36,121 nucleotides of DNA from Phycisphaerae bacterium (GTDB lineage Bacteria > Planctomycetota > Phycisphaerae > Sedimentisphaerales > SM23-30). The notes below the pieces were generated by a model. That model searched no databases, was not told the origin of the DNA, and saw only the letters and a list, made by a program, of their open reading frames with translations. Of this stretch, positions 24,292-26,375 are shown piece by piece; within the stretch, counting starts at the first letter, position 1; each line of letters opens with the position of its first letter. The translations under genes and the position numbers were made by a program. The stretch lies in NCBI GenBank assembly GCA_016342495.1, contig JAEIOG010000048.1:1-36121 (forward strand), in the 5' to 3' direction.

Positions 24292-24339
24292 ATGGCCGCT
24301 CTATTTGGCCAATATGGAAAGTTACAGGAGTTAAAATAA
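24292..24339 (+). CDS. Possible 15-codon leader peptide overlapping the basic protein start
   Basis: ATG at 24292 opens a frame of 15 codons (MAALFGQYGKLQELK). Its TAA stop shares its last A with the ATG of the next gene (TAATG). It lies wholly within the predicted leader of the consensus promoter. There is no SD before this ATG, so translation is uncertain, but the overlap geometry is typical of translational coupling. Too short for homology reasoning; chance cannot be excluded. Confidence 0.3.
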   Translation: MAALFGQYGKLQELK

Positions 24340-24572
24340 TGGGTCAGAGACGTGACAGACTTGATGGTCGTTTAGCTCGCCAAAAGAGTACTCGTATTAG
24401 AAAATCAACAGTAAAAGAACTGGAACGCGGTCGCCGCGAAAGCCAGATGCTTGAACTGTTGAAAGGCAGCTCGGCACCATATTCGCCAGCAGTTATGAAC
24501 TGGGTTAGCGTACAGCTTGGCAAAAAGACTGCCAGAGTAACCGAAGCAGATATCAAAACTCTGATTGCTTAA
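24339..24572 (+). CDS. Unrecognised 77-aa basic protein, probably highly expressed
   Basis: A small protein with a strongly basic N-terminal half (MGQRRDRLDGRLARQKSTRI, then RKSTVKELERGRRES) and a C-terminal part with AVMNWVSVQLGKK and TEADIKTLIA that looks helical. No signal peptide, membrane span or cysteine is present. Composition and size suggest a nucleic-acid- or ribosome-associated protein, but I recognise no family and it does not resemble bS20 or bS21. Support for a real gene is strong: a consensus promoter 89 nt upstream, GGAG 8 nt before the ATG, and an intrinsic terminator 43 nt after the stop. The promoter and terminator quality suggest abundant monocistronic expression. A 15-codon upstream frame overlaps its start. 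Confidence 0.8.
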   Translation: MGQRRDRLDGRLARQKSTRIRKSTVKELERGRRESQMLELLKGSSAPYSPAVMNWVSVQLGKKTARVTEADIKTLIA

Positions 24573-24615: not shown

Positions 24616-24654
24616 AAAGGACAGCTTATCTTATGATATGGCTGTCCTTTTTTT
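24616..24654 (+). terminator. Intrinsic terminator between the basic protein gene and purU
   Basis: AAAGGACAGC (24616-24625) pairs perfectly with GCTGTCCTTT (24641-24650), with a 15-nt loop and a T7 tract ending at 24654. The opposite strand also has T-rich sequence after the stem, so it may serve the convergent purU operon too. Confidence 0.9.
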
Positions 24655-24675: not shown

Positions 24676-25527
24676 TTAATCAAAGACAATAGTTCTCTGT
24701 TTGTATACCATGATTTTATCATCGATAAAGGACCTGACCGCTTTGGCCAGCACTTTCTTTTCGACATCGCGGCCCATCGCCAAAAGGTCATCAACGCAAT
24801 GGCTGTGATTGACCCTGGCGGTCTCCTGTTCGATGATAGGGCCGGTGTCAAGTTCGGCGGTGACAAAATGACTGGTGGCACCGATGAGCTTAACGCCTTT
24901 TTCATAGGCCTGATGATAAGGTTTGGCACCTTTGAACGCCGGCAGAAAACCGTGATGGACATTAATGATTTTATTGGGATAGGCATCGATGGTTTCAGGT
25001 TGGATAATCTGCATGTAACGGGCCAGAACTATCAGGTCAATTTGATGTTGTTTGAGTAATTCCAGCAGACGCTGCTGAGCTGATGTTTTGGTGTCTTTGG
25101 TGACCGGGATATAGAAAAACGGGACCTTGAAATTAATCGCGATATTTTCCAGGTCAATATGATTTGAGATGATCATGGAAATGTCGGCTTTGAATTCACC
25201 ATACTGATGACGTAAAAGCAGATCATATAAACAATGGTCATATTTTGAAACCATTAATGCCAGTCGCTTGCGATTTTCAGCAAAGTTGATTTCGGTATCC
25301 ATATTATGTTCCTGGGCGAGCTGGTCTAAATCAGTGGTCATTTGCTGTTTGGTGACAGTTAAGCTACTGCAGTCAAAATGAACCCACATGAAAAAACGCT
25401 CATCCAGTTGTTCATAATGATGATTGGAATTAATGATATTGCCGCCACGTTCGAAGATGAATTTTGAAACGCGATAGACAATGCCAGTAGCATCTGGACA
25501 ATGAAGTTTTAAGGTAGCGGTATTAAT
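24676..25527 (-). CDS. purU: Formyltetrahydrofolate deformylase with apparent ATT start codon
   Basis: A 283-aa enzyme splitting 10-formyltetrahydrofolate into formate and tetrahydrofolate, feeding formate to purine synthesis. Residues 1-80 are an ACT domain (LKLHCPDATGIVYRVSKFI, then GGNIINSNHH). Residues 90-283 are the formyltransferase fold with catalytic N189, H191 and D227 (INVHHGFLPAFKGAKPYHQ, GATSHFVTAELDTGPI). The first in-frame ATG (25389) would remove 46 residues and half of the ACT domain. Upstream there is no ATG, GTG or TTG before the in-frame TGA. AAAGGAG (25540-25534) sits 6 nt before an ATT at 25527, which gives the normal family length. An ATT start is therefore inferred. It is the last gene of the minus-strand cluster, 42 nt after the preceding gene. 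Confidence 0.92.
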   Translation of the reverse strand: MNTATLKLHCPDATGIVYRVSKFIFERGGNIINSNHHYEQLDERFFMWVHFDCSSLTVTKQQMTTDLDQLAQEHNMDTEINFAENRKRLALMVSKYDHCLYDLLLRHQYGEFKADISMIISNHIDLENIAINFKVPFFYIPVTKDTKTSAQQRLLELLKQHQIDLIVLARYMQIIQPETIDAYPNKIINVHHGFLPAFKGAKPYHQAYEKGVKLIGATSHFVTAELDTGPIIEQETARVNHSHCVDDLLAMGRDVEKKVLAKAVRSFIDDKIMVYKQRTIVFD

Positions 25528-25569
25528 GGTATACTCCTTTGTTAAAATTGGGACTGATTTTCAAGAAGG

Positions 25570-26262
25570 TTAATCGTCGGTTTTGTTAATTTCAGTATTA
25601 TTATTATCAGGTTTTTGGAATTCAGTTTGAATGATTTCAGTGCATTGATTTAAGACTTTCCCGGTCAGGGCGTGTATTCTGGTTTTCTGGTCGGTGCTGT
25701 AGCAGGTTTTGCCGGCTATGCGTCGGGCTTCGATGATTTCACCGGTATTAAGGTCAATGACATTAACAATGAATGCTAATTGCTGGGTTTGCCCGCTGTT
25801 ATTGACTGTTTTGGATTCGGGCCAACGGTTGACCTGCATTTGTGACGAACTGAGCAGGGCTTTTGCTTGAGTCTTTGGCTCTGGGGGGATTTGTTTGGCC
25901 GATGTGATATAGAATGAGCCATAGCTTTTGCGGTCCTGAGCATTTTGGGCCCAAACCCTTAACTGATCTTTGGTATCAGCTTTTATGGTTTGGGTAAAGC
26001 TGCCATCGGTATTTAGTTTTACCGGTATTTTTTCGCCTGAGTTTTTATTTTCGATATAAACTTCGGTTTCGCTGTCGCCCTCAATGGCACCGGGCTGGCC
26101 TTGAACTAAAAAACTATTGCTTTGATCGGTTTGCCAGATGGTAATAAATTGTTTATGTACTTTTACTGTTTGGGCTAAGCTGTTAATTGTCAGCAAAGAT
26201 CCGGTGATGATGATTGCGATACTGATAATGATTTTTCGACTGGAATTAATCTGTACTTTCAT
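25570..26262 (-). CDS. Exported protein of unknown function (Ig-like N-terminal region)
   Basis: A 230-aa protein with a signal peptide (about residues 1-30: basic start, then IIISIAIIITGSLLTINSLAQ). Residues about 35-110 are beta-rich, with a GxPGAIEGDSETEVYIEN segment and GSFTQTIKA, reminiscent of a bacterial Ig-like domain. Residues about 135-210 hold AFIVNVIDLNTGEIIEARRI, resembling lipoproteins that assemble or carry ligands, but I cannot name a family. The tail is Asn/Asp-rich. The ATG at 26262 is preferred over 26268: AAAGGAG abuts 26268 directly but lies 6 nt before 26262. It sits between tsaE and purU and is likely co-transcribed with purU (42-nt gap). Confidence 0.65.
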   Translation of the reverse strand: MKVQINSSRKIIISIAIIITGSLLTINSLAQTVKVHKQFITIWQTDQSNSFLVQGQPGAIEGDSETEVYIENKNSGEKIPVKLNTDGSFTQTIKADTKDQLRVWAQNAQDRKSYGSFYITSAKQIPPEPKTQAKALLSSSQMQVNRWPESKTVNNSGQTQQLAFIVNVIDLNTGEIIEARRIAGKTCYSTDQKTRIHALTGKVLNQCTEIIQTEFQKPDNNNTEINKTDD

Positions 26263-26375
26263 TGCCATCTCCTTTATGGTCAGTTTCTTACAAATGAAAT
26301 CTTACGCAAAACATTAGGTTATCATTGTTGTCAGACTTAAGTGCAATCTCTGTTTGATTCCCGTTCCTTATAGGG

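Follow-up and report, generated by a model that had tools for sequence, protein, structure and literature searches.

A probable AUU initiation codon in the purU gene of a Phycisphaerae bacterium, shared with a second genus

The purU gene of a Phycisphaerae bacterium, encoding formyltetrahydrofolate deformylase and located on the minus strand at positions 24676 to 25527 of the window (the whole 36,121-nucleotide stretch analysed, contig C218 of the 5.4-Mb, 221-contig draft assembly G000), most probably begins at a real AUU codon of the infC/pcnB kind, with low and probably IF3-sensitive synthesis of PurU. We place the probability of this reading at roughly 0.78. The proposed initiation codon, ATT at 25525 to 25527, has an exactly homologous counterpart in G006, a Sedimentisphaerales MAG (Planctomycetota, Phycisphaerae); the feature is carried by these two genomes and is known here from sequence alone. 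To our knowledge, documented chromosomal AUU starts are very few, and the prior for such a start at any given gene is therefore low. No AUU-started purU was found in the literature searched, within which this putative infC/pcnB/ccpN-type start would be new for the gene.

The reading frame opened by ATT continues uninterrupted to the stop at 24676 and comprises 283 codons. Its product is identified as PurU by the whole-protein equivalog score and by the two-domain layout, ACT followed by formyltransferase. It reaches 370.2 bits against TIGR00655 (equivalog cut-off 285.95), matching from profile position 2, and 384.3 bits against NF004684; Formyl_trans_N covers residues 87–264, and residues 4–282 align with residues 4–284 of PDB 3w7b. 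The N-terminus has no ACT match in Pfam and a weak match to NF001220 (ACT domain) at residues 11–81. Six solved PurU structures (3w7b, 3o1l, 3nrb, 3obi, 3lou, and 3n0v) align from residues 3–5 onward. The sequence-only reading had claimed that starting at ATT, rather than at the first in-frame ATG, adds 46 residues of the ACT domain (25390 to 25527, minus strand) and yields a protein of 283 aa. This is borne out by the structure alignments and by the TIGR00655 score, which rises from 320.7 bits for the 237-aa protein started at ATG 25389, the latter matching only from profile position 46.

A TGA (25561 to 25563, minus strand) closes the purU frame upstream, and from this stop the sequence runs TGA AAA TCA GTC CCA ATT TTA ACA AAG GAG TAT ACC ATT AAT ACC GCT ACC, the proposed start being the ATT at 25527-25525. 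Sequence and translation agree with the earlier statement that no ATG, GTG, or TTG occurs in this frame of the window from the TGA at 25563-25561 down to 25389. A second in-frame stop, TAA at 25572-25570, ends a co-directional upstream gene (25570 to 26268, minus strand) that has no match in Pfam or NCBIfam and terminates 42 nt before the ATT. Readthrough from this gene was considered and rejected: the frames agree, but both the TAA and the TGA intervene, and the neighbours of purU in G006 are different.

The ATT is preceded by a Shine-Dalgarno (SD) sequence, AAAGGAG at 25534 to 25540 (minus strand), separated from it by the 6-nt spacer TATACC (25533-25528), to the base as had been reported. 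Its base rate was estimated from the 63,488 ATTs in about 1.06 Mb of G000, with the SD required to lie 4–11 nt upstream. The 7-mer precedes 26 of them (0.04%) and the 6-mer 0.37%. Among sampled genes of the genome a 6-mer is present in 11/66 and a 5-mer in 24/66. Strong SDs are rare ahead of random ATTs and uncommon even at genes, and with a 7-mer in the window and a 6-mer at the homologous ATT of G006, a chance origin of both is very unlikely. The properly spaced SD, together with the lack of a canonical start in the window gene, places purU as a candidate member of the AUU/AUH-start class.

A true PurU was found in four of the 161 genomes of the order: G000, G006 (the same family, another genus), and G050 and G103 (another family), so that within the family no genome besides G000 and G006 has purU. 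The G006 gene reads CTCAAGGAGAGAAATC-ATT-CATAAAGCAACT at the exactly homologous codon (G006/L003/L032), with AAGGAG and a 7-nt spacer. The sequence-only reading had looked to the relatives' homologous codon for a check, and the comparison supports it at close range: the G006 gene, 64% identical at the protein level, has ATT with an SD of its own, not ATG, while more distant loci carry ATG, GTG, or TTG there or a few codons upstream. Nucleotide identity between the two genes is 71/82/40% at codon positions 1/2/3, and the protein is therefore under purifying selection, as the 82% at second and 40% at third positions indicate. The codons following the ATT differ (AAT ACC GCT in G000, CAT AAA GCA in G006); the SD and the ATT are kept. 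The two loci are not syntenic, and their neighbouring genes differ. The non-canonical codon is thus retained in the relatives as sampled by one genome, G006, and the MAFFT alignment of raw leaders is informative for the two ATT loci only.

The wider survey of purU starts covered 139 loci, repeats included, from phylum, class, and GTDB contigs, one of which (L172) is cut by the contig end and is uninformative. In G050 and G103 an ATG lies five codons upstream of the ATT column, and in the other loci the start column or its vicinity holds ATG (in most), GTG, or TTG. Hydrogenedentota form the closest outgroup in the tree, and several of their purU genes carry an ATG precisely in the ATT column; a change from ATG to ATT is for that reason the simplest history. 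In the tree, the purU genes of G000, G006, and G050 cluster together (94/91) within a Hydrogenedentota-Lentisphaerota group and apart from other planctomycete PurUs; because of this placement the gene was probably transferred horizontally between phyla.

The infC gene served as a control. In G000 it starts TTAAGGAGATAAACC-ATA-GCG (L117, contig C157 at about 4280), with AAGGAG, a 7-nt spacer, and a stop codon just upstream. At the infC loci compared (L113–L118) the start is ATA in G000, G001, G006, and G008 and ATC in G010 and G050, and in these six genomes no ATG, GTG, or TTG precedes this codon within the open frame. A non-canonical start of the classical infC type is therefore present in this lineage. 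The frequency of such starts was approached by a scan of about 1.06 Mb of G000 against 1.08 Mb of G006, which gave 70 orthologue pairs at at least 150 bits. In this set purU is the only clear gene with homology extending well past the first ATG, GTG, or TTG, which argues that non-canonical starts are not common in G000. Three others were flagged, one a probable antisense ORF and two with alignments reaching a few residues past the ATG; the flagged pairs of the scan also included pilin-type N-termini and one frame-broken gene.

Several known systems resemble the proposed start. In E. coli, infC, which encodes IF3, likewise combines an AUH codon (AUU) and a strong SD at 6–7 nt with no canonical alternative, and the infC genes of other bacteria, that of G000 (ATA) included, start at AUA or AUC. 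The E. coli case rests on discrimination by IF3 (PMC5472188), and the product, IF3 itself, closes an autoregulatory loop, a mode of control not open to PurU as an enzyme of folate metabolism. The pcnB gene of E. coli, according to Binns and Masters (2002) as cited in PMC13009471, has a chromosomal AUU start by which production of the enzyme is limited; like purU it is an enzyme gene, but the enzyme and the lineage are unrelated. In S. aureus, cvfC1 (AUU) and ccpN (AUA) have extended SDs, are conserved among relatives, and were demonstrated by ribosome profiling and reporters; such starts give about 10% of the AUG output, with ccpN rising to as much as 30% in rich medium (PMC13009471). They share with purU the AUH codon and the strong SD, and ccpN is a regulator of central metabolism; for purU the evidence is confined to sequence. 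The sigR gene of Streptomyces begins at GTC behind a strong SD, an arrangement conserved throughout the genus, and is repressed by IF3 according to infC mutants (PMC5472188). It is like purU in joining a non-canonical codon to a strong SD and differs in the codon itself, GTC instead of ATT, and in that the effect of IF3 was established with infC mutants.

By analogy with these genes, the full-length 283-aa PurU would be made from the AUU codon. The initiator tRNA would pair with the first two bases and be mismatched at the third, and the strong SD (AAAGGAG, at 6 nt) would hold the 30S subunit at the AUU and compensate in part. IF3 disfavours a third-base mismatch of the initiator tRNA at AUU, according to an in vitro survey (PMC10158994). 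On this ground the output of purU may be expected to be reduced and IF3-responsive, amounting to a fraction of the AUG level and dropping when IF3 becomes more active, in the manner of infC and pcnB. Such sensitivity is plausible for purU, since infC of the same genome starts at ATA with a matching SD arrangement. PurU converts 10-formyl-THF to formate and THF (PMC10197868), and the weak start might be kept to limit this hydrolysis, protecting the formyl donor, perhaps in a responsive way. We infer the initiation at AUU, the low output, the sensitivity to IF3, and the retention of a weak start against 10-formyl-THF hydrolysis.

The most serious alternative accepts the AUU start and regards it as merely tolerated: little PurU is needed, the shared ancestor acquired the ATT from ATG by drift, and the strong SD makes up for it, with no regulation. 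It differs from the preferred reading on regulation alone, so that the confidences placed in the two overlap, and we give it a little under an even chance. All of the support for the AUU start fits it. The Rfam scan of the window found no known RNA element, riboswitch, or leader, and the fold of the initiation region is ordinary (z = 0.50), its stability not being significantly above that of shuffles in either genome; both results agree with a start lacking regulation. Against it, two genera whose genes are 40% identical at third positions have both kept exactly ATT with ATG one base away, which hints at selection and, with n = 2, cannot prove it.

The remaining explanations deny the AUU start. 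According to the first, G006 initiates at a GTG lying in frame nine codons ahead of its ATT, the purU of the window has lost its start and is poorly expressed or decaying, and the ATT is a shared Ile codon. A GTG start in G006 is possible, because most sampled genes lack even a 5-mer SD. This GTG, however, has no SD, whereas the 6-mer lies 7 nt before the ATT, and the window gene is intact along all 283 codons and has diverged mostly at third positions; we consider the explanation improbable. Less credible still is a start at ATG 25389 (25387 to 25389, minus strand), which a gene caller restricted to ATG, GTG, and TTG would predict and whose product, with the first half of the ACT domain missing, still scores above the family cut-off. 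This ATG lacks an SD (TGGATGAGCGTTTTTTC) and encodes the internal family methionine of the strand 'ERFFMWVHF', a conserved FFM(R/W)V strand in which it aligns with the FFM of PDB 3w7b and with 'EQFFMRVHF' of G006, and the 46 residues upstream of it show protein-level conservation in G006 and agree with the solved structures. A one-base assembly or sequencing error hiding an ATG, or a frame error further upstream, is conceivable in a draft assembly of 221 contigs in which another gene (L192, at about 240–260) is thrown out of frame by one base close to its start, but it is highly improbable given the ATT in G006, a MAG from a different genus with an assembly of its own, and the lack of an ATG in any frame between the stop of the upstream gene and the ATT.

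If the AUU start of purU is real, annotation restricted to ATG, GTG, and TTG removes 46 residues from this PurU and damages its ACT domain. 10-formyl-THF also supplies the formyl group of the initiator tRNA (PMC7949028). If the start is regulated, production of the enzyme that hydrolyses 10-formyl-THF would be coupled to the machinery that uses this compound up in formylating the initiator tRNA, so that a dependence of initiation fidelity on folate status could be tested. A connection of the AUU start with fMet-tRNA formylation is speculation; an ORF with an Fmt-like formyltransferase sequence is present in G000. In its strongest form, which we think unlikely, the AUU codon would act as a sensor, more dependent than AUG on IF3, IF2, and fully formylated fMet-tRNA, so that a shortage of 10-formyl-THF would lead to less PurU and spare the formyl donor. 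Such a sensor would join one-carbon metabolism and the fidelity of start-codon selection in a feedback loop that operates through translation.

In both genomes an out-of-frame mini-ORF covers the SD and terminates at the ATT or immediately past it. That of the window runs from TTG 25564 to TAA 25523, and that of G006 (L003, 2368-2342, minus strand) reads ATG CTC AAG GAG AGA AAT CAT TCA TAA. Frameshifting from them into purU was rejected, the peptides being unrelated between the genomes and the mini-ORFs lacking an SD; they are taken as chance, though they may be a termination-reinitiation feature. Directly 3' of purU, at 24616-24650 of the window, lies an inverted repeat, AAAGGACAGC...GCTGTCCTTT, with runs of A and T at its flanks; facing the convergent ORF at 24339-24572, it resembles a bidirectional terminator. 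Elsewhere in G000, in the response-regulator gene at about 238–270 of L192 (contig C19), the sequence ATGACTAATAAGCAC is shifted by one base relative to the reading frame of the remaining protein; this break near the start means either that the assembly is wrong there or that the gene is broken.
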